From Roseivivax jejudonensis (lineage in GTDB: Bacteria; Pseudomonadota; Alphaproteobacteria; Rhodobacterales; Rhodobacteraceae), in contig NZ_FWFK01000011.1 of NCBI RefSeq assembly GCF_900172265.1, forward strand, positions 1 through 59,323: a stretch of DNA of 59,323 nucleotides, given 5' to 3'. How positions within the stretch are numbered: position 1 is the first letter of the stretch; every line of letters starts with the position of its first letter. Below are positions 406 to 49,780 of the stretch, piece by piece. Both the position numbers and the translations under genes were made by a program. A model generated the notes under the pieces. The model was not told the origin of the DNA. It saw only the letters and a list, made by a program, of their open reading frames with translations, and did not search any database.

Positions 406-1652
406 TTGAAGCGCATTGTTATTCTTTGCGACGGAACATGGAACAGGTCCGACAGCAAGACTCCGACAAACGTCGTGCAACTTGGGCAGGCTGTTGCGCC
501 CGTCGCGACAGACGGGACCGTGCATGTTCCGATTTATATCCAGGGCGTCGGCACTGGCGAAGGCGTAACGCGATTGTCGCGCAAACTCGACGCAGTGCTT
601 GGGGGTGCCTTCGGGTGGGGTCTACTGGACAATATCGCTGAGGCTTACCGCCATCTGGTCTTTCTCTACAAGCCAGGTGACGAGATCTACATCTTCGGCT
701 TTTCTCGCGGCGCATACACGGCCCGGTCGCTCACCGGATTCATTCGTTCGACCGGGATCGTCAACCGGGACTCCCTCAACCTCATCCCCGAGGCCATTTC
801 GCGATACAGAACGCTCGATCAGCCGAAGCGCACACATCCAAGCAGCAACGCGAGCCATGATTTCCGAGCGAGACTTTCGCCTCGCGTGGTTACGAGAGAG
901 GTGGAAACCGATTGGAGGAGTGCCAAAGGAATGCCCGATGTTCCGCGCCTCCGGATCAACTTCCTTGGTGTTTGGGATTCCGTCGGAGCACTTGGCGTAC
1001 CTGCCCATATTCCCGTCTTGGGCAATGGGCGAAACGACGCTATCGCTTTCACGACGCGGACCTTTCGAGCATGGTTGTGTCCGCACGCCACGCCGTTGCA
1101 CTCGATGAACGGCGCAAATCATTCGAACCGACACATTGGACGAACATCGCCGAGCTCAATCAAGAGAGCGGGAACCCAGACCCTGAACTCTACCAGGAAC
1201 GATTCTTTGCCGGCGACCATGGCTCGGTTGGGGGCGGCGGCGACATCCGGTCTCTCTCCAGCATTGCGTTGACATGGATGATCGAAGGTGCTCACGCAGC
1301 AGGCTTGCAGTTCAATTCTGAACGGGTTGCACAGATCGAAACCGAACATGATCCGAACGGCCCGCTTCGCAGCACGCGCGAAGCACCGACGGGCATCGTG
1401 AATTGGCTAACTCGTCTCTCGCCAAAGGATCGGGCAGGGCCGGGTGCGATCGACGAGCTGCACTCGGCGGTGCTGGATCGCGTAAGAGTAGATCCGAATA
1501 CGTATCGTCCCGGCAGCTTGGCGAAGCTGCATGAAAAACTCGTCCTCCTGCTTTCGGACGAAAGCTCCAAAAAGGGGTCCTCCCAAACACAACGCCTAAC
1601 CCTGTCCCGAGAGCATCGCGCGGTCATAGGCAGCAGCATGTTATCCGAATAA
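406..1652 (+). pseudogene. DUF2235 (Tle1-like) hydrolase, frameshifted
   Basis: Two overlapping frames together make a protein of about 415 residues of the DUF2235 family, alpha/beta-hydrolase proteins that include type VI secretion phospholipase effectors (Tle1). The first frame has the family start KRIVILCDGTWN, the nucleophile motif GFSRGAYTAR and NFLGVWDSVGALG. The second frame supplies HDADLSSMV, ALDERR and the C-terminus. The switch lies near 1020-1050, where one frame must move by one base. The start is taken as TTG at 406 because GGAGG lies at 395-400; an in-frame GTG lies further upstream. It is a single-gene fragment without VgrG, PAAR or immunity neighbours. A sequencing indel could mimic the frameshift. 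Confidence 0.75.
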
Positions 1653-7870: not shown

Positions 7871-7945
7871 CGAGCCCAAAGTGACCGCGTCGATTTTGGG
7901 CGTGTTCGCGATTGCAGCATGGGCGCGCCCGTCGCGGACGGCCCT
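7871..7945 (+). repeat. Dispersed repeat, copy 2
   Basis: Identical over 75 bases to 1846-1920, with diverged similarity running on to about 8060. It lies in the 450-bp stretch 7733-8185, which has no convincing gene and also contains the IS1182 right end and the approach to the IS91-type element. Confidence 0.85.
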
Positions 7946-8185
7946 GACCTGCCGTTCAAGGGGCTGTCCCTCGCTGCGGTGCGGCTCCCCGGAACCGGTT
8001 ATTCATGGCATCGTACAGCATGGTCTCGCAGGCCAAAGTCAGCAGTGCGGGACGGGGACGAAACCGCTCTCGCGGTAGGGGCGCCAGGGGCGAGTGTAGG
8101 GCGCTGATCGGGGCGCCGGGATTCTGTGGATGGGCGCGCCTGTCTGACGATTGGGACCTTCTCAATCCGATGACAGGAGGTTCCG

Positions 8186-9058
8186 ATGACGGACCAGCAT
8201 GTTCCCGCCCTGCGGCGACGGTTTCTCGAGGATATGCAGATCAGAGGGCTGCTGCCGAAGACGCAGACGATGTACCTGCGCGCGATGCGCGAGTTCACGC
8301 GGTTTCTGGAGCACTCACCGGATACGGCGACACCGGAGGAGCTAAGGGCCTTTCAACTCGACATGAAGGAGCGCGGCGTCGGCGCACCGACCTTCAACAA
8401 CCGGCTGACGGTGCTGAGCTTTTTCTTCGCGACGACGTGTCCCCGCCCCGAGATGAAGCGGCACATGCGCTATCAGCGCGCCGCGAAGAAGATCCCGGTC
8501 GTGCTGAGCGCCGAGGAAGTGACGCGCATTCTCGAAGCCGCACCAGGGCCGGGGCTGAAATACCGGGCAGCCTTCAGCGTGGCCTATGGCGGCGGGCTGA
8601 GGGCGAGCGAAGTCACCCATCTGAAGGTCGGCGATATCGACAGCGACCGGATGCTGATCCGCGTCGACCAGGGCAAGGGCCGAAAGGACCGCCACGTGAT
8701 GCTGTCGCCGAGCCTGCTTGAGCTCTTGCGCGACTATTGGCGCGAAGCCCGGCCCGCGGGCTGGCTGTTCCCCGGCCGCAGCCGGATCGATCCGATCTCG
8801 ACGCGGCAGTTCAACCGCGCCTTCGGCGTCGCCTGCGACTTCGCCGAGATCAGGAAGAAGGTGTCGCCTCACACGCTCCGGCACAGCTTTGCAACACATC
8901 TGCTGGAGGGCGGGACCGATATCCGGGTGATCCAGGTGCTGCTCGGTCATGCCAAGCTGGAGACCACGACGATCTACACGAAGGTCGCCACCAAGACGAT
9001 CCGGGACGTGACCAGCCCGCTCGATCTGTTGCTGCGACGGGAGGCTGGTTCCGGCTGA
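8186..9058 (+). CDS. Tyrosine recombinase of the IS91-type element
   Basis: This is a 290-residue XerC/D-like tyrosine recombinase with an N-terminal SAM-like core-binding domain (TMYLRAMREFTRFLE) and a catalytic domain. The catalytic residues are visible: Arg in GGGLRASEVTHL, Lys in QGKGRKDRHVML, HxxR in SPHTLRHSFAT, His in LLGHAKLETT and Tyr in IYTKVATK. Start ATG 8186 follows AGGAGG. It lies 10 bases before the IS91 transposase start. A role in processing the rolling-circle element is inferred from linkage. It is not a phage integrase: it is 11 kb from the phage genes and tied to the IS. Confidence 0.9.
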   Translation: MTDQHVPALRRRFLEDMQIRGLLPKTQTMYLRAMREFTRFLEHSPDTATPEELRAFQLDMKERGVGAPTFNNRLTVLSFFFATTCPRPEMKRHMRYQRAAKKIPVVLSAEEVTRILEAAPGPGLKYRAAFSVAYGGGLRASEVTHLKVGDIDSDRMLIRVDQGKGRKDRHVMLSPSLLELLRDYWREARPAGWLFPGRSRIDPISTRQFNRAFGVACDFAEIRKKVSPHTLRHSFATHLLEGGTDIRVIQVLLGHAKLETTTIYTKVATKTIRDVTSPLDLLLRREAGSG

Positions 9059-42206: not shown

Positions 42207-44239
42207 GTCGTGTCTCCTAGTGCCACCGCGCGCTTTTGCTCTTTCTCAAGCTCAAGCTCTTCCATATCCAACAGCGCCTGAATCTCTGCCTTCTCGCGCT
42301 CAAGCTGCTGCTGATCGACCTTGAGGCCCATTTCCTGCATTTTCAGCGAAAGCTCGTAGCGCTTCACCGCCGCGTTGACCTGAGCATCATATTGCCGCGT
42401 CTGCGCTACCTGCTGCGCCTCTGCGCGCTTGGACTGCATTTCCTGCGCCCGCAGCTGCAGTTCCTTCTCCTTGAGCGCCAGCTCCTGGCTCTTGATCTGG
42501 TTGTCTGCCTGGGCTTTCTGCGCCTCGATCTGCATTTTCTGCATTTCCGCCTGAGCCTCGGGGCTCGGCTGATCCTGCCCCTGCCCGGCCTGCTCCAGCT
42601 TCTTCACGAAGTCATCGACCGCAGCGCCCATGTCACGGCCAGCCCGGAACGCGCCCACACCAAACCGCAGCAGCTCGCCCATGAACTGAGCCGCCTCGGG
42701 CCGCGCCTCGATCACCGGCCCCGCCTGCTGGATGAACCCGCCAACCGCCGTCAGGAACTCGATACGGCTTTCCTTCTCCGCTTCCTCGTTCGGGGCAATC
42801 GTGCTGTCCGTCTCAACCTCCAGCGCAAACGGACGCAGCCGCTGATTAACCAGAAGCTGCTGCACCATTTCCACAGTCACAATCTGCGGCGGCGGCTGCT
42901 GCTGCGCTTGGGCCTGCGCCACGATCTGTTGAGCCTGCTGCTGAGTGGGCATCTGCATGCCCGACATCGCCAGCAATTCCCCGATTTGGTATTTCTCAGC
43001 GTAGATCTCGGCCTTGATCCGCAGAACGTCCAAAGCCAGCCGAACCATCTCGGACTGCTTCTCACGCACCCGGACAGAGCCGTACTGCGCCTTGAGGTTC
43101 TGAGCCCCCAGCGTCTCCTGCGCCTCCGTAACCCCCCGCATGATGTCGGAGAGGCCGGTGATTTCGTAAACATCCTCAATGAGCTGCTTGCGAAGCTCGA
43201 TGCACGACTGAATGACCTGGGCGACTTCCGTCACTGGCAGCCAGACGATGCTGTCCTTGAGCGACTGACCGCCCATCGCCGCGAAGTTGGACACCGGCAC
43301 CAGAATGGCCTTGTTGTCCGTCTGCCTCATCGCCGCTTCAATCGCCTCACCGATCTCAGACGTGCCGGCGGCATAGAAGCCCTTGAGGCGCAGGCTCTCG
43401 GCCAGATCACTGATCCGGGCCGTCAGCTCGTTGATCTCGTCAACCTGATCCTTGTAGTAAACAAAGTCTGGAACCGGCTTGAGCGTGCCCGGCTCCAGCG
43501 TGGCGTATGCCGGCTTGGGGCACGGGAAAAAGCTCTTTACATCAAACAGCGGCTCCTGCTCGTCCAGAACCTCATCGACGCCCTCGGTGACCCACACGAC
43601 CTTGCCTTCGGTTCGGGACCAGATCTCCCAGGCCTCGGCCTTCTTCTCCGACGACTTGTAATCGTCCTCGCGCTTGTTCCCGACTTCCTCGCGCTTCGAC
43701 CGGCGAAACTCATCACCGAACCGCTTCGTGCCTTGCTCCAGCGTCAGGTATGCCCGACGCGCCACCCACCCGACCTCGGACCACTTGCGCCCAGGCTCGT
43801 GCACGAAGTCATGCCGATCAACGTGGATCGCGTGGCCATCATCCAGAACCCACACGACACCGCGTGCAGCGAGGCACATATCATCGCGAGCCGAAAGCAG
43901 CGTTTCGTGCAGATCGTCCGCCTCGACGTCGTATTCAAGCACACGCTCAAGCAACTCGGCAGCTTTGCGCGGCACCTCGCCAGTGTCCGTATGGCGCGGC
44001 ATCACGACGGGCGAAGGCGCACGCTGATAGACGCTCGGGCGCAGGATCTCCATGTTTGCCCAGAAAATCTTGAACTCGCGGTCGCCCTTGAAGTCCGCCA
44101 TATCCGTCAGGGCGGCGTAGAGCTTCGCGATGTTGTCGCTTTTCTCCTGCCAGACGTTGAAAGCCTTCTCCGCTTCGGAGATAGCCTCAAGCCACGGCCG
44201 GGATGCTTTCGGCGCGTCTGTCTGCTCGTCGTCTTGCAT
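42203..44239 (-). CDS. Portal protein
   Basis: 678 residues from ATG 44239, which shares a base with the terminase stop. The N-terminal 470 residues hold the portal clip-stem-wing region (FWANMEILRPSVYQRAPSP, RLKGFYAAGTSEIGEAI, YEITGLSDIMRGVTEAQ, AQYGSVRVREKQSEMVRL). The C-terminal 200 are Gln/Glu/Ala-rich coiled coil (barrel). This layout is that of portals of BPP-1/BcepC6B-type podoviruses, which also have adjacent P22-like adaptors. Confidence 0.85.
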   Translation of the reverse strand: MQDDEQTDAPKASRPWLEAISEAEKAFNVWQEKSDNIAKLYAALTDMADFKGDREFKIFWANMEILRPSVYQRAPSPVVMPRHTDTGEVPRKAAELLERVLEYDVEADDLHETLLSARDDMCLAARGVVWVLDDGHAIHVDRHDFVHEPGRKWSEVGWVARRAYLTLEQGTKRFGDEFRRSKREEVGNKREDDYKSSEKKAEAWEIWSRTEGKVVWVTEGVDEVLDEQEPLFDVKSFFPCPKPAYATLEPGTLKPVPDFVYYKDQVDEINELTARISDLAESLRLKGFYAAGTSEIGEAIEAAMRQTDNKAILVPVSNFAAMGGQSLKDSIVWLPVTEVAQVIQSCIELRKQLIEDVYEITGLSDIMRGVTEAQETLGAQNLKAQYGSVRVREKQSEMVRLALDVLRIKAEIYAEKYQIGELLAMSGMQMPTQQQAQQIVAQAQAQQQPPPQIVTVEMVQQLLVNQRLRPFALEVETDSTIAPNEEAEKESRIEFLTAVGGFIQQAGPVIEARPEAAQFMGELLRFGVGAFRAGRDMGAAVDDFVKKLEQAGQGQDQPSPEAQAEMQKMQIEAQKAQADNQIKSQELALKEKELQLRAQEMQSKRAEAQQVAQTRQYDAQVNAAVKRYELSLKMQEMGLKVDQQQLEREKAEIQALLDMEELELEKEQKRAVALGDTT

Positions 44240-45549
44240 CAGATGCGCGTCCTCTTGCTGCCGGTCTCTATCTCGGGCGGCGCGATAAGCACCTGACCCG
44301 GCTTCGGCTTCGCAACCGTCTTGATCTTCTTCACCGCGAGATCGCGATAACCCTGAGCCGCGTATCGCATTGCGTCTGCGCAATGGCTGGACCAGTCGTG
44401 CAGGGGCCTCGGCTTGAACACCTTGGCTTTCTCGTCAAACTCTGTCCGGTAGTGCCGTAGCGCCTCAAGCCCATCCCGGCAGCGCATGGCATCGAACCAC
44501 ATGCGCGGAAGAAGCTGGCGAACACCGTTGATCCCGTCTTCCTGATTGGCCGGCGGCAGCAGGAACGGCTTGCGACCAAGCCCCGCCAGCGTCTCAAGCC
44601 TGCTGCGACCCGTATCGAGACTGCGAACCTTTGCATCGTGAGGCACGTAGTCAGTGCCACCCGTCCAGCCGCGCGCCTCAAGCTCCGCGACGTAATGAGG
44701 CAGCGGCTTGCCGTGATCCTCCAGGTAATCAATCAGCCGCATTCCGTCAGGCGCGGCCTGGAAAACCCAGATTGCCATGCTGTCGCCAATGCCAAGATCC
44801 CACGCCGTATGGATTGGCAACGCGGGCTCCGGCTTGACCTCGGTTATACGTCCCTCGGCCTGAGCGTCAGCCACCAGCGAAGCGTAGTAGGCTCCGAGAA
44901 TGGCAGCATCAAAGCTGCACTCGTATTCCTGCTCGTATTGCTCGGGCGTCATCGTCAGCCGCGCATCGGCCAGCTCCGCCCCATCAATCAGCCCGCTCTC
45001 GGATGCCTTGAGCACCAGAGAAAACCAGTCGTCGCTGCTCTCTGCCAGCTTGTGAACGTCAAAGAAGGCGTTGCGGCCCTTTGGCGTCCCGATGAACGTC
45101 GCCCACCCCTTGCGGTCACTCAAAGCAGGGCGAATGACCTCGGCCCATGCGCGCGGGTCCATGTCGCCGTTTTCGTCCAGAATGCAGCCATCCAGATAGA
45201 TGCCGCGCATCCGGTCGTAGTTGTCTGCACCGTAGAGCCGTATCCGAGCGCCGTTGTGGCCGAACGTGACGTGCAGCTCGCTTTCGTTGGGTGTCGTCCC
45301 CGGAATGCCGCTCGTGTATTGCTTGAGATACTGCCAGGCGACGTCCTTGGCTTGGGTGTAGAACGGCGCGATGTAGGCCAGCCGAGCATTTGGCCTGTCA
45401 GTCTCGATTGCTGCCTTGATTAGCTTCTGAATGCAGGCGACCGTCTTGCCTGCCCGCCGGTGCGCCACGATGCACGACCAGCGCTGTGTGCTTGTGAGAA
45501 AATCCCGGAACGGCTTGCGGGGGATGATCTCGACATTGACGGTTGTCAT
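44239..45549 (-). CDS. terL: Terminase large subunit
   Basis: 436 residues. The ATPase has a Walker A variant AHRRAGKT (about 29-36), Walker B in LDGCILDENG (about 119-128) and motif III TFIGTPKGR. The nuclease domain has its first Asp in AWDLGIGDSMAIW (about 251) and a C-terminal acidic cluster. ATG 45549 overlaps the small-subunit gene by four bases. It packages DNA into the prohead with the portal. Confidence 0.93.
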   Translation of the reverse strand: MTTVNVEIIPRKPFRDFLTSTQRWSCIVAHRRAGKTVACIQKLIKAAIETDRPNARLAYIAPFYTQAKDVAWQYLKQYTSGIPGTTPNESELHVTFGHNGARIRLYGADNYDRMRGIYLDGCILDENGDMDPRAWAEVIRPALSDRKGWATFIGTPKGRNAFFDVHKLAESSDDWFSLVLKASESGLIDGAELADARLTMTPEQYEQEYECSFDAAILGAYYASLVADAQAEGRITEVKPEPALPIHTAWDLGIGDSMAIWVFQAAPDGMRLIDYLEDHGKPLPHYVAELEARGWTGGTDYVPHDAKVRSLDTGRSRLETLAGLGRKPFLLPPANQEDGINGVRQLLPRMWFDAMRCRDGLEALRHYRTEFDEKAKVFKPRPLHDWSSHCADAMRYAAQGYRDLAVKKIKTVAKPKPGQVLIAPPEIETGSKRTRI

Positions 45550-45821
45550 TCCCCGCCGATTTGAACCTTGAGAACAACGCGATCTGTTGCATCGCCAGTG
45601 TCATCAACAGATTTCAGCTTTGGCATCACCCGATCCAAAAGCGACAGGCCCGCGTTAACCTCCGAGGCCGTCATTTCCGGCTCGTTGCCCTCGGCGTGGT
45701 CAATTAACCGCTTGAGAATTTTGGAGTTCGCGATTTTAGTTCGATGCTCAGCCCCCATTTGAAAGCCGGGCTGCCTGCCTCGTGCCGCCATGCTGCTGTC
45801 TGCGCCGGTTTGAGCGGTCAC
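45546..45821 (-). CDS. Putative terminase small subunit
   Basis: 91 residues: basic start (ARGRQPGFQMGAEHRTKI), helical centre (KILKRLIDHAEGNEP, VNAGLSLLDRVMPKLKS) and a short C-terminal strand. It lies directly upstream of terL with a four-base overlap, the standard place for the DNA-recognition subunit. ATG 45791 is an alternative start. The assignment is mainly positional. Confidence 0.65.
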   Translation of the reverse strand: MTAQTGADSSMAARGRQPGFQMGAEHRTKIANSKILKRLIDHAEGNEPEMTASEVNAGLSLLDRVMPKLKSVDDTGDATDRVVLKVQIGGE

Positions 45822-45845: not shown

Positions 45846-46391
45846 TTAAGCGTCGGGGTCGTTGTAGATGCGCCAGATAATTTCTTCTGCTGCGCCTTCA
45901 GAAACGCCAGCTCCGATCATATGACGAACGATCTTGGCACACCTGTTGTGTTCGCGCTCCATTGGGCTGACCTGCGGGGGCAGAGGCTCCGTCGCATCGC
46001 GCCCGGGGCGCAGCGGCTCTTTGCAACAGACCTTAAGCCAAGCGTTGATTTGCTTGATACTCTTTTGCCCGCACCCCGGGGCGCGCAGCATAGTTGCTTC
46101 TTTTACAGCCGAAACTGCGTCTGGCGTGATCTCGTCTTCCTCGCAGCCCAAAACGTGACACATCGCCCGGATCGCTCGACTGCTGCATATCTCCCTCATC
46201 ATGGGAGATACATGATTCAAGAAGACTTCGCTCAGTTCATTTGCGGGCTTTACGCTAGAATATTCTGATTTTGATAGTGCCCGAAGATGGTTTCGGTCCG
46301 TAGATTTCATGAAGTTCAAAAACGAACTTTCATCGTAAACACCGTTGATCGCCAAGAGATCGCGAGCTTTTCGGCTGATGTCGTCAATCAT
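45846..46391 (-). CDS. Phage protein with RNA polymerase alpha-CTD-like HhH motif
   Basis: 181 residues, helical. At about residue 105 it contains ATMLRAPGCGQKSIKQINAW, which resembles the helix-hairpin-helix of the RNA polymerase alpha C-terminal domain (LLxxPxxGxKSxxEI). The rest is not recognised. It is the second gene after the late promoter and overlaps the first by eight bases. It could bind DNA near packaging genes or act on transcription. Confidence 0.6.
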   Translation of the reverse strand: MIDDISRKARDLLAINGVYDESSFLNFMKSTDRNHLRALSKSEYSSVKPANELSEVFLNHVSPMMREICSSRAIRAMCHVLGCEEDEITPDAVSAVKEATMLRAPGCGQKSIKQINAWLKVCCKEPLRPGRDATEPLPPQVSPMEREHNRCAKIVRHMIGAGVSEGAAEEIIWRIYNDPDA

Positions 46392-46635
46392 TTGAGATGC
46401 ACCGCTGCGGGTTTGAGCCGTCAGCGCCCCTCGTTAGTGAACCTGCGGGCCGACGTCGCCAAGGGCCGACGTCGCCAATGGCAGCCGCCAGCAATACCGC
46501 TTCCATGTCTTCGTTATCCAGGTCAGTGCAGATCCGGACAGTGCCGTCTGTGTAGACTTCCAGCAGGACGTGTCCCGCCATCTCGGCAATCTCTGCCGCG
46601 TCGTCGTCCATCAGTGAATCAACGAGATCCGACAT
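46384..46635 (-). CDS. Small acidic phage protein, first late gene, altered C-terminus
   Basis: 83 residues with an acidic start (MSDLVDSLMDDDAAEIAEM) and LEVYTDGTVRICTDLDN. A 16-base tandem duplication (46447-46478 region, unit GGCCGACGTCGCCAA) shifts the frame near its end; without it the protein would stop after AAAIGDVGPQVH. The present last 26 residues are therefore probably new sequence. It follows a 177-base leader. Confidence 0.6.
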   Translation of the reverse strand: MSDLVDSLMDDDAAEIAEMAGHVLLEVYTDGTVRICTDLDNEDMEAVLLAAAIGDVGPWRRRPAGSLTRGADGSNPQRCISND

Positions 46636-46692
46636 TCCGTCGTGCCCATGCTGGCACCTCGCTGTGAGTGGATGGCTGGAATTGCAGTAGCA

Positions 46693-46742
46693 CCAGCCCC
46701 GATCCCGCGTAGGGAGCCCCTCAAATTGCGAGGGTGGGCTGG
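46693..46742 (-). ncRNA. Three-way-junction RNA in late leader
   Basis: In the leader of the late transcript CCAGCCC pairs with GGGCTGG (7 bp) and encloses two perfect hairpins, CCCTC-GCAATTT-GAGGG and TCCC-TACGC-GGGA. The outer stem and both arms are uninterrupted. A further hairpin CCCGC/GCGGG lies just upstream (about 46748-46765). It is placed between the late promoter and the first late gene. It may be a terminator-antiterminator, a protein-binding site for the NusG-like protein, or a put-like element. No U-run follows. Confidence 0.6.
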
Positions 46743-46818
46743 CTTCTCCCGCTTATGCCGGCGGGCGGACGCCGAAACCGCTGCTCGCAGGTAACGACGT
46801 CACTTCGGCCTTGTTCGC

Positions 46819-46847
46819 AATATAGCGCATATGCGGTGGCGGTGCAA
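46819..46847 (-). promoter_or_regulatory. Predicted late promoter
   Basis: Read leftward: -35 TTGCAC (46842-46847), 17-base spacer, -10 TATATT (46819-46824). Transcription should begin near 46812, giving about 177 bases of leader before the first late gene. It lies 12 bases after the end of gene 46859-47062, in the only large gap of the leftward set. Confidence 0.7.
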
Positions 46848-46858
46848 TAGTGGTGGTG

Positions 46859-47062
46859 TCAAGCCTTATTCTCTGTCGCCTTTCTGCACGCCCGTCTATA
46901 GCCCTGATGATCAAAACCCCAATTTGGAACAATTCGCAGCGGCCCTAAATACCACCTGCCCTGCATGTCCTTTGTTGCTTTCTCAGCATCGCGCATGCGC
47001 CGGTAGCTCCCGATACGGTGCTCGTAACTGCCCGTTTGATGAATTATGGCCAGCGGCTTCAT
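46859..47062 (-). CDS. Small phage protein after the NusG-like gene
   Basis: 67 residues, basic (MKPLAIIHQTGSYEHRIGSY, CRKATENKA). It overlaps the NusG-like gene by four bases, so the two are cotranslated. No family recognised; a partner of the antiterminator is possible from position. Confidence 0.6.
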   Translation of the reverse strand: MKPLAIIHQTGSYEHRIGSYRRMRDAEKATKDMQGRWYLGPLRIVPNWGFDHQGYRRACRKATENKA

Positions 47063-47628
47063 GCCCGCCTCTTCGCGTCAATCGGATCAAGCTGCCCCGG
47101 CACCCACCCGCCGAACGCCTCGATCTCCACCTCCAGCGACGGGTGCATGTCGTGGGCGTGGTGAACCATCTTCCTAAACCGCGCAAGACGGCCAGCCAGC
47201 GGCCCTGTAAGCACCTCCAGAAGCTCTCCAGGCTCATACTGGCACATGGCCGCCCTGTCGTTCGCTTCAATGATCCTGTAAGCCTCTGCGGCTTTCTCTG
47301 CGGCTTTTGCGATGAAGGGCTGAACGTGCCGGCGCGCCTCTGCTTCGCTGATCCGCATCGTGGTGGACGAAAGCCCCCGGCAGCGCATGGCCTGAAAGAA
47401 CTTGTCGTCCGGGATGTCCGCGAACACGTAGTTGGGGCACAGCACCTCCACGATGGGATCGGGGTGTCTGCGCTTGCCCTGCCGCTTGAACGTGATCTTG
47501 CGGGGAGCGTGGGCCTCGATGCCGAGGGCGCCAAGCTGACGCTCTACGGCAAACTCGCCCCGCTCTTTCTCAGCCCCCGGCCATGCGGGGATCTGCCTGC
47601 TCGTGGTGATTAGTGCGTAGTATGCCAT
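47059..47628 (-). CDS. NusG/RfaH-like transcription factor
   Basis: 189 residues. The N-terminal NGN-like domain runs from AYYALITTSRQIPAW to NYVFADIP (residues 66-73) and includes the ERQLGALGIEAHAP turn. The C-terminal KOW domain contains EPGELLEVLTGPLAGRLARF (about 132-151) and ends in LEVEIEAFGGW, the strand pattern of NusG. A basic loop (TFKRQGKRRHPDP) is inserted in the NGN. ATG 47628 starts the recognisable domain; upstream frame is a shadow. It occupies the place of lambda Q, directly before the late promoter and leader, so it is a candidate late antiterminator. Confidence 0.85.
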   Translation of the reverse strand: MAYYALITTSRQIPAWPGAEKERGEFAVERQLGALGIEAHAPRKITFKRQGKRRHPDPIVEVLCPNYVFADIPDDKFFQAMRCRGLSSTTMRISEAEARRHVQPFIAKAAEKAAEAYRIIEANDRAAMCQYEPGELLEVLTGPLAGRLARFRKMVHHAHDMHPSLEVEIEAFGGWVPGQLDPIDAKRRA

Positions 47629-47648: not shown

Positions 47649-47828
47649 TTATCGGTTGGGTTGAACTCTTTTGTTCCAAGCGCTCTTGGGGCCAGATACG
47701 TCGTGGTGGTGGCCAAAATCTACGGTGGCACCGCACGACAACTGATCTTCGCAGCCAACCATGTTCGGCCCAAAAACCATTGCTGGCTTCCCGCAAAATG
47801 GGCATGGCTTTAGATCAGCCTCACTCAT
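47649..47828 (-). CDS. Lar-like zinc-ribbon protein
   Basis: 59 residues: LKPCPFCGKPAMV with a second Cys pair (GCEDQLSCGA) and the end SGPKSAWNKRV, the standard Lar/restriction-alleviation-like zinc ribbon. Lar proteins modulate type I restriction in some phages; many homologues are untested. ATG 47828 overlaps the upstream stop (ATGA). Confidence 0.8.
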   Translation of the reverse strand: MSEADLKPCPFCGKPAMVFGPNMVGCEDQLSCGATVDFGHHHDVSGPKSAWNKRVQPNR

Positions 47829-49255: not shown

Positions 49256-49382
49256 CGTCGTTCTCCATTCCGGGTGCGTCAGTTCGGCCAAGATCCACCT
49301 TCTCAGCAAATGTCCCGACGTTCGGGCTGGCTGAGGTGTGCGAATTTTCTGAGAAAGGGTTGTGCTGGGTGGCGTCCGTCAT
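49242..49382 (-). CDS. Small acidic phage protein, 46 residues
   Basis: MTDATQHNPFSENSHTSA, then FAEKVDLGRTDAPGMENDDG. ATG 49382 overlaps the stop of the replication gene (ATGA) and its end overlaps the next start by 14 bases. Likely disordered. Supported mainly by its place in a gap-free set. Confidence 0.5.
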   Translation of the reverse strand: MTDATQHNPFSENSHTSASPNVGTFAEKVDLGRTDAPGMENDDGAE

Positions 49383-49780
49383 TCTTCGCTCCCGTCGTCG
49401 ATCAGAAGGGCAAGATCATCAAACGCTGACGGAGCGGTGTTCTCTTTCATGTTGGAGTGACAAATAGCCCCCCTACCATGTGCCAAATAACCACTCCCGA
49501 GCAGCTTGTAGCGGTTGTTCATATTGCGCTTGCCGCGCCCGGTTCTGTAGGTGCGCTTCATCGTGGATAGGCGCCCCACTTTCTCGATTTGCGAGATAGC
49601 CCGGATCACCGTTCGGCGGCTGAGGTTGGTCTTCTCAGCAATGCGGTTCATGGACGGGTCGCAGCGCCCCGTCTCCTGATTGTGCGCGTGCCCAAGGTAG
49701 CAGGCCACCAAAGCGGCCGCCTGCCCGAGCTTGTGATGCTGGATCGTGTCAAACGCCCACTGGATGCCACGGAAGCTCAT
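49379..49780 (-). CDS. Helix-turn-helix replication initiator-like protein
   Basis: 133 residues. MSFRGIQWAFDTIQHHKL, AAALVACYLGHAHNQETG and the winged helix NRIAEKTNLSRRTVIRAI match the N-terminal DNA-binding domain of phage replication (O-type) or replisome-organiser proteins. The C-terminal acidic tail (FDDLALLIDDGSEE) is unusual. There is no helicase-loader domain, so it may depend on host DnaA/DnaB. ATG 49780 overlaps the upstream stop. Confidence 0.7.
   Translation of the reverse strand: MSFRGIQWAFDTIQHHKLGQAAALVACYLGHAHNQETGRCDPSMNRIAEKTNLSRRTVIRAISQIEKVGRLSTMKRTYRTGRGKRNMNNRYKLLGSGYLAHGRGAICHSNMKENTAPSAFDDLALLIDDGSEE

Follow-up and report, generated by a model that had tools for sequence, protein, structure and literature searches.

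RfaH is a specialised NusG paralogue that loads at the leader DNA element ops and makes RNA polymerase processive. Lambdoid phages keep separate switches through N/nut and Q/qut.

Several described systems resemble the locus presented here in one respect or another. The NusG paralogue LoaP of Bacillus velezensis needs a small RNA hairpin (dfn) in the 5'-leader for antitermination (PMC12691694). For lambda Q, a DNA element mediates loading at a paused complex (PMC7171158). The put RNA of phage HK022 is about 70 nt long and consists of two stem-loops, which hold the polymerase in an active state and work without a protein; putL is found just downstream of its promoter (PMC9378689). Finally, GafZ of the Caulobacter gene transfer agent is an antiterminator that carries a sigma-like helix-turn-helix and probably acts together with the NusG of the host (PMC11150451).

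For phage proteins similar to NusG or RfaH there are labels only, namely those of phiGT1 gene 67, PHROG 6386 and entries of BFVD. GenBank labels phiGT1 gene 67 (type III, see below) as an RfaH/NusG antitermination protein on HHpred evidence, and phrog_6386, which also matches host NusG, is named transcription antiterminator. The terms NusG, RfaH and antitermination do not occur in the phiGT1 papers (PMC10386132, PMC7427195), and neither these nor antiterminator occur in a review of alphaproteobacterial phages (PMC10783043). No phage late switch is described in the available parts of two NusG reviews (PMC7819879, PMC6391919). The protein class is thus already labelled in databases; no description of the leader, the cassette or the H1 types reported below was found in the open-licence PMC papers searched.

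Several phages and prophages of Roseobacter-group bacteria appear, from comparison of their sequences, to turn on their late genes by means of their own copy of NusG, a universal transcription factor, and a matching RNA hairpin where the late message begins. The conserved unit consists of a nusG-like gene, a putative promoter, two predicted hairpins (H1 and H2) and a tail, GUGCUACUGCAUUUC. The example studied lies in a window of 59,323 nucleotides, which is the whole contig. Its genes in this region are all on the minus strand, and the features are as follows.

49379-49780, minus strand: replication-initiation-like ORF upstream of the nusG-like gene
47649-47819, minus strand: Lar-like ORF upstream of the nusG-like gene, with a match just under the Pfam cut-off
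47059-47628, minus strand: type I NusG paralogue of 189 aa, NGN and KOW domains (phrog_23142, 2.5e-14; phrog_6386, 3.8e-4; also by profile, AlphaFold, Foldseek and tree)
46859-47062, minus strand: 67-aa ORF between nusG and the promoter, overlapping the nusG-like gene; not conserved, probably an insert
46842-46847, minus strand: -35 element TTGCAC, 3 of 6 positions as in TTGACA
46819-46824, minus strand: -10 element TATATT after a spacer of 17
46768-46801, minus strand: H1-like hairpin by RNA fold, with an ACC-U-GC...GC-GGU core and an internal loop UU/UU, diverged from H1-I
46748-46765, minus strand: middle hairpin CCCGC...GCGGG by fold, resembling by reading one in L064 and L007
46692-46743, minus strand: H2, stem GCCAGCC/GGCUGGU directly before the tail, by fold and stem test
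46679-46693, minus strand: tail GTGCTACTGCAATTC, one mismatch to the consensus of three other loci
46384-46635, minus strand: 83-aa ORF, the first after the leader, from the ORF map, without Pfam or PHROG assignment
45846-46391, minus strand: 181-aa ORF from the ORF map, without family match
45546-45821, minus strand: 91-aa ORF directly before TerL, likely in the small-terminase position, without family match
44239-45549, minus strand: terminase large subunit (TerL; phrog_2, 9.1e-40)

The identities of these ORFs give the order early or replication genes, NusG-like gene, promoter, leader, late genes. Counterparts of the 91-aa ORF precede TerL in loci L070 (63% identical) and L055 (42%). The 67-aa ORF had been called a cotranscribed partner gene in the sequence-only reading, which was an overstatement. 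It has no PHROG or Pfam match, and tblastn finds it in none of the compared loci except L061, which has the same sequence. In L063, L212, L216 and phiGT1, the interval between nusG and promoter holds other ORFs or longer gaps. To judge from these comparisons, the ORF probably is an insert outside the conserved unit.

For the 189-aa protein, a single-sequence Pfam search gives no NusG match (PF02357 is absent), and those relatives that match PF02357 at all score under the Pfam cut-off, which may explain their labels as “hypothetical protein”. This Pfam-negative result is misleading, as profile and fold searches succeed. With a four-member profile, 21 PDB matches are obtained at E<=1, and 21 of 21 are named NusG or Spt5; the best is 2lq8 (2.3e-6, positions 22-180). 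The KOW domain aligns on NusG over profile positions 113-185, and the AlphaFold model (mean pLDDT 89.2) shows a C-terminal domain made of strands, at 136-187. Foldseek returns 23 PDB matches at E<=0.001, most with titles that name NusG, RfaH or Spt4/5, the remainder being transcription complexes in which the matched chain is not named in the title. RfaH bound to a paused complex is among them, as are a NusG-RNA complex and the NusG of two antitermination complexes, lambda N and rrn. Over the whole chain, TM-scores reach no more than 0.24-0.49 (by query), since the arrangement of the two domains differs, and single domains fit better (TMt 0.62 for RfaH in 8pen, 0.75 for the NusG C-terminal domain in 2jvv). 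Of the viral models in BFVD, 7 match at E<=0.001, and two of these carry the name RfaH or NusG.

The genome that contains the window also encodes a housekeeping NusG, on contig C16, and the 189-aa protein is therefore a specialised paralogue. Two matches to phrog_6386 are counted in this genome; among the matches listed, the only one is the host NusG on C16. Structure prediction had been proposed as a check, and the predicted fold is NGN plus KOW by profile, AlphaFold and Foldseek alike. With TerL downstream, this bears out the earlier description of a 189-aa NGN+KOW protein just before the late genes.

The promoter-like site TTGCAC-17-TATATT starts 11 bases after the 67-aa ORF. When 300 random 70-nt stretches were drawn from the window, just 1.3% equalled its score. 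The earlier reading of a “strong promoter” stands as far as a promoter-like site; “strong” says too much for a -35 element with half of its positions matching and for a site that is not listed in the tool's promoter scan of the window. In 21 loci, the 70 bases preceding H1 were scanned for their best promoter-like site, which scores above the 95% quantile of the background in 14. For 12 of the 21, the site ends 7-9 bases ahead of H1, so that the transcript would begin with H1; two of these 12, L118 and L216, have sites that 39% and 12% of random stretches equal. The site of the window (rank 1.3%) ends 17 bases ahead of H1. The promoter script found nothing above 10% in L071, L072 and phiGT1.

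If transcription is assumed to start at 46812, the leader of the window extends to 46636 and has 177 bases, the length given in the sequence-only reading. Its tail GTGCTACTGCAATTC is the sole exact match in the window, and 0 of 200 shuffles reach its match to the consensus. The predicted H1 has, by reading, the loop GAGCA. It is missed by the H1 model R2, as the whole leader is by the leader model R1, and since this H1 is diverged, its pairing partner was deduced from where the hairpin lies and from the conserved tail. Folded alone, the leader is only mildly unusual (z -1.65, 14/200 shuffles). Between H1 and H2, the middle hairpin (46748-46765), which resembles one in L064 and L007, has an CGGCAUAA loop. 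The NusG closest to that of the window in the tree is from L064 (support 95/96), and by reading the elements of the L064 leader come in the same order. Rfam gives no match at gathering in the window; at E<=1 there is one weak eukaryotic match each for the leaders of L055 and the window, nothing beyond chance.

In total, 27 distinct loci including the window (26 others) were compared. Type I comprises 19: the window, L062, L063, L055, L066, L067, L208, L064, L059, L057, L058, L007, L049, L069, L070, L118, L054, L056 and L060. Type II has four (L212, L211, L216, L221), as does type III (L071, L072, phiGT1, L073). L071 is the same as Sulfitobacter phages pCB2047-A/C and NYA-2014a, and L055 is a prophage of Leisingera SS27. 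L118 was assigned to type I by its H1; in the NusG tree it groups with type III and has a long branch. Among the named genomes, those of Leisingera, Alloyangia, Salipiger and Sulfitobacter encode a related protein. Carriers number 3 of 295 family genomes by protein search and 4 of 341 order genomes by profile, the window's own genome included, and the system is therefore uncommon. Neither the L005 protein nor the L055 leader DNA has a match in the phage collection.

TerL is found downstream in 20 of the 27 loci and is of unrelated types, with terminase families that include phrog_2 branches, 979/38, 9 and 3717. Tblastn with the collected terminases gave no match in L054, L056, L059 (contig end) and L215 (the same as L211); this search covered the loci other than L060, L216 and L221. 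In L054 and L056, which have the nusG-like gene, neither a leader nor a terminase was found. In most related loci, the nusG-like gene occurs with a promoter-like site and a leader, so that the linkage in related phages that had been suggested as a check is indeed seen.

Some further observations concern annotation. In Sulfitobacter phage pCB2047-A (L006, 7717-8522), the GenBank start of the NusG-like gene is at 7995, and an in-frame ATG at 7902 restores the usual N-terminus. In the same phage, the ORF just before this gene is called “putative integrase”, and the one between it and the terminase “putative GTPase Era”. Twelve family genomes carry 3-5 NusG-family matches each; 18 loci with extra paralogues (L190-L207) were mapped for ORFs only.

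The DNA just after nusG is more conserved than the gene itself. In all-against-all blastn comparisons, the block after nusG is 89.5% identical over 105 bp between L062 and L063, versus 76.9% for the gene, and 95.9% over 122 bp between L055 and L063, versus 86.6%. The block stops exactly at the end of the tail when L062 is paired with L063, L055 or L067. Other pairs extend it or add short blocks: L066/L067 continue to 60 bases past the tail, and L055/L063 and L049/L069 share an extra 43-base block after a gap. In five loci the leaders are 80-95% identical. Identity at third codon positions is 46-57% for 8 of their 10 pairs and 68% and 86% for the remaining two. Among the 15 closest of 105 pairs, leader similarity is greater than that of the gene in 11, and in all 15 it also exceeds that of both flanks, the one upstream and the one after it, each taken as 120 bases.

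DNA alignments of nine or ten whole leaders proved too gappy for use. Model R1 was built on six leaders of the main type, which have two hairpins in about 86 nt. It also finds the leaders of L069, L007 and L049 (E 0.0036-0.008) and L118 (2.8e-6), and misses those of the window, L064, L057, L058, L070, L071, L072 and phiGT1.

H1 of type I (H1-I) is a bulged hairpin with a stem, a bulged C, ACC/GGU, a bulged A or U, three pairs and a tetraloop ending in C. By reading, the tetraloops are UCGC, CAGC, UUGC, UAUC, CGGC, CAUC, UAAC and CCUC. In an alignment of 12 sequences (11 distinct), 91.7% of cells are paired and 12 cells are doubly changed, neither value nor the covariation score being reached in 500 shuffles (0/500 each). 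Both sides change in 5 of 11 pairs (2/500 shuffles). Controls in which the pairing is slid drop to 22-50% paired, and further pair types are not above shuffles (324/500). An earlier, less well aligned set of 10, including the window and L070, gave 80.0% paired (10/500), double changes in 6 of 11 pairs (0/500) and a covariation of 0.248 (7/500). The window and L070 are unaligned in the H1 alignment and were therefore left out of the H1 model.

H1-I is present in 14 of the 19 type I loci. Across all 27 loci, a recognised H1 is absent in six (window, L070, L073, L054, L056, L060). Minimum-energy folds of L059, L007, L118 and L057 are without H1; the centroid of L118 shows it. In the L007 leader (1200-1325, minus strand), the 5' bases can pair with the tail and replace H1 in the minimum-energy fold. 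If real, this alternative pairing would amount to a switch.

The stem H2 borders directly on the tail GUGCUACUGCAUUUC. The tail consensus was defined on L062, L055 and L063 and searched in 18 other loci, where it is found above chance in seven: with one mismatch in the window (0/200 shuffles) and in L007 (0/200, in 8 kb), two in L064 (0/200) and L067 (1/200), and three in L066 (0/200), L071 and L118 (1/200 each). It was not found in the other 11 (L059, L057, L058, L049, L069, L070, L072, L073, phiGT1, L054, L056). By reading, the tail is one base shorter in L059, phiGT1 and L212. A seven-pair stem abuts the tail in 13 of 15 loci with a tail by reading, versus 6-11% at random positions. Twelve of these stems are flush with the tail and that of L118 is four bases away; the misses are phiGT1 and L212. 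The 13 stems have nine different sequences, so it is the stem that is kept and not its letters. Shortly after the tail, a further hairpin-like stretch (GCCGCTTTT.TGTGG and variants) recurs, at about 7725 in L071, 2478 in L072, 4926 in L076, 7790 in L055 and 7890 in L063.

The hairpin H1 occurs in three types. L211, L212 and L216 served to define the H1-II pattern, GGAUC.CC.GAUUUCGGAUC.GGG, with UUCG at its tip, and a search with this pattern led to L221, the fourth type II locus. The apex of H1-III, GCAGGGRWUACCC, is present in three of the four type III loci and absent in L073. On the NusG tree (25 rows), the three types need 2 changes, which is the minimum possible and is reached in 0 of 200 shuffles. 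Types II and III each form one side of a well-supported branch (100/100 and 100/99), and the unlabelled L073 falls on the side of type III. Taken by itself, type I needs 2 changes, since the other types sit in the middle of the tree. L118, L059, L211 and the host row have long branches, and their places are unsure.

The second hairpin is distributed differently. A search with the type I H2 pattern found five viral contigs, three with a type I NusG and two with type II. In the type II locus L221, H2 is almost that of type I, apart from a paired change in its stem, and the tail reads GUGCUACCGCAAUUC; L216 combines the type I H2 with a diverged tail; L212 has the tail and a different H2. H1 types follow the NusG tree, and H2 is common to types I and II. 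This would be expected if the NusG paralogue reads H1, and something common, for example RNA polymerase, reads H2 and the tail.

Gene and leader are also inherited together. In Mantel tests on 15 loci, NusG and leader similarity are correlated (rho 0.63, 0/2000 permutations), with values of -0.13 for NusG and TerL (1678/2000) and 0.03 for leader and TerL (748/2000). Adjacent DNA is co-inherited anyway, which weakens this test by itself, and further facts therefore matter. An example for exchange is given by the two prophages of genome G498. Over the 2654 bp that end at the first nusG bases, their identity is 94.5%. From there across nusG, promoter and leader, blastn detects no similarity, and past this stretch the two are again 94% identical, over 373 bp. 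The cassette was thus exchanged whole. The terminases of the two prophages differ, that of L214 being like L062 (95%) and that of L213 like L067 (100%).

The leader can also be found apart from the gene. In L007 (genome G086), it lies about 6.8 kb downstream of nusG, still directly before the terminase genes, and in L057 and L058 it is about 1 kb from nusG. The L007 nusG copy (8083-8643, minus strand) has an in-frame stop; the L007 leader is at 1226-1322 (minus strand).

Searches with H1 lead back to NusG. When viral contigs were scanned for the H1-I pattern, 75 stretches came up; seven have a NusG match in the DNA examined and 68 none. The same seven are those with a promoter-like and tail-like context by eye; six are on known contigs and one is new (L118). 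The H1-II pattern gave seven stretches on six viral contigs. Three have a type II NusG, two known and the new L221, and four (on three contigs) have no NusG match. Two new viral NusG contigs, L118 and L221, were thus found through H1 alone. In 394 family genomes, R2 has only two matches above 35 bits, in G086 and G088, which are the two other genomes found by protein search to carry this NusG; it gives no match in the window's own genome, which is also among the 394. Matches of R2 at 32 bits or less were rejected: of 30 loci taken from the 394-genome scan, a phage NusG is present in L153 alone (the one of G086 falls outside the short locus L152), and 17 of the others were judged from their context by eye to be chance. 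A looser H1-I pattern, run over the collected loci, occurs only at phage nusG loci, with the single exception of L027. In L093 (6736-6883), tandem 42-base repeats happen to contain the H1-I pattern, with no NusG nearby.

The model proposed for this system, which is fairly likely to be right, is that a phage-owned NusG paralogue does the job of lambda Q and is loaded on RNA polymerase through H1, making it processive. RNA polymerase would start at the promoter just after the nusG-like gene and soon make H1. The cognate paralogue would bind H1, as LoaP does its hairpin, and then be handed to the polymerase, with H2 and the tail as a common element for loading, pausing or polymerase contact, for which the HK022 put RNA sets a precedent. 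Once loaded, the paralogue would occupy the NusG site on the polymerase and resist Rho and pausing, and the polymerase would run on through the late operon. Timing, RNA binding, loading and antitermination in this scheme are our inference from the data above. No intrinsic terminators are listed in the leaders of L055, L066 and L064, and the L062 leader has two on the sense strand and one on the other, versus 2.4 expected. With no clear intrinsic terminator in these four leaders, Rho or pausing are the likelier targets.

The sequence-only reading had proposed a late antiterminator that recognises the leader or promoter-proximal DNA. The evidence favours a hairpin in the leader RNA over promoter-proximal DNA. 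An element structured over about 30 bases, with compensatory pairing, points to RNA. By analogy, reading of H1 by the NusG paralogue in the manner of LoaP is the best reading. Both cases combine a specialised NusG paralogue with a leader RNA hairpin. Here, however, the target is a phage late operon in alphaproteobacteria, a second hairpin is common to types, and there are three cassette types. LoaP has a UNCG loop; by reading, H1-I, H1-III and the H1 of the window lack UNCG, and only type II has such a tip.

RfaH is likewise a specialised NusG paralogue, and the predicted fold matches RfaH on RNA polymerase (8phk, 1e-6). The conserved element here is a structured stretch of about 30 nt instead of ops. 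The window has 6 matches to ops versus 8.5 expected, and none is in the leader at up to two mismatches. The autoinhibited C-terminal domain of RfaH is all-helical, whereas strands are predicted here, a prediction that leaves room for a second fold. The likeness to lambda Q and pR' is one of position: regulator gene, late promoter, leader, late genes. The lambda Q element is DNA, whereas the element here looks like RNA, and the Q-protein family is not among the Pfam or PHROG matches of the 189-aa protein at E<=1. GafZ is similar as an alphaproteobacterial antiterminator of a phage-like late cluster, and differs from a NusG paralogue as a sigma-like helix-turn-helix protein.

Since NusG-family KOW domains can bind S10, the protein might instead be a translation or coupling factor, which loads on the leader like RfaH and mainly recruits ribosomes or protects late mRNA, with little effect on termination. 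The absence of a convincing intrinsic terminator in the four leaders scanned would suit such a factor, which is nonetheless improbable. Alternatively, the leader may be a put-like RNA that modifies RNA polymerase alone, with the NusG-like protein helping or doing something else. The main type I leader, with its two hairpins, is close to put in size and form, and putL, too, lies just downstream of a phage promoter. Here, however, the RNA is linked to a NusG paralogue. The H1 type changes with the NusG tree and gene and leader are exchanged together, which a protein-independent RNA would not need, and this explanation is unlikely.

The protein could also delay the late genes, if binding to the leader paused or terminated the transcript until the protein was diluted or removed. 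A hairpin closely before the conserved tail could be a pause or termination signal, but by reading no U run directly follows H2 except in L216 (GUGUUUUUGCAU), and known specialised paralogues such as RfaH and LoaP are antiterminators; such a role is very doubtful. Because the block is close to terS/terL in many loci, it could finally be taken for a DNA packaging site (cos/pac). This is the least credible proposal and was rejected: leader similarity is unrelated to TerL similarity in the Mantel test, L066 and L067 are alike in NusG (0.97) and leader (0.87) with unrelated TerLs (0.01), the 95% identical TerL of L062 and L214 goes with different cassettes, and compensatory base changes point to RNA.

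There is also a broader picture, for which the chances seem about even. NusG paralogues may have interchangeable RNA specificities, each reading its own hairpin (H1-I, H1-II or H1-III) near the late 5' end, with H2 and the tail serving several of them. Prophages in one cell would in this way have separate late switches, much as lambdoid phages do, and this would be a class of late control in phages that has not been described before.

If the model is true, it describes a new way for a phage to do the task of lambda Q, in which NusG and hairpin are inherited and swapped together. Three natural protein-hairpin pairs with a partly common second element would be a test system for how NusG paralogues choose their targets. 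With the cassette one could also ask if it is RNA or DNA that is read, and by what route such specificities come about. The late switch of these Roseobacter-group phages, which most annotations give as hypothetical proteins, would then become recognisable from sequence.
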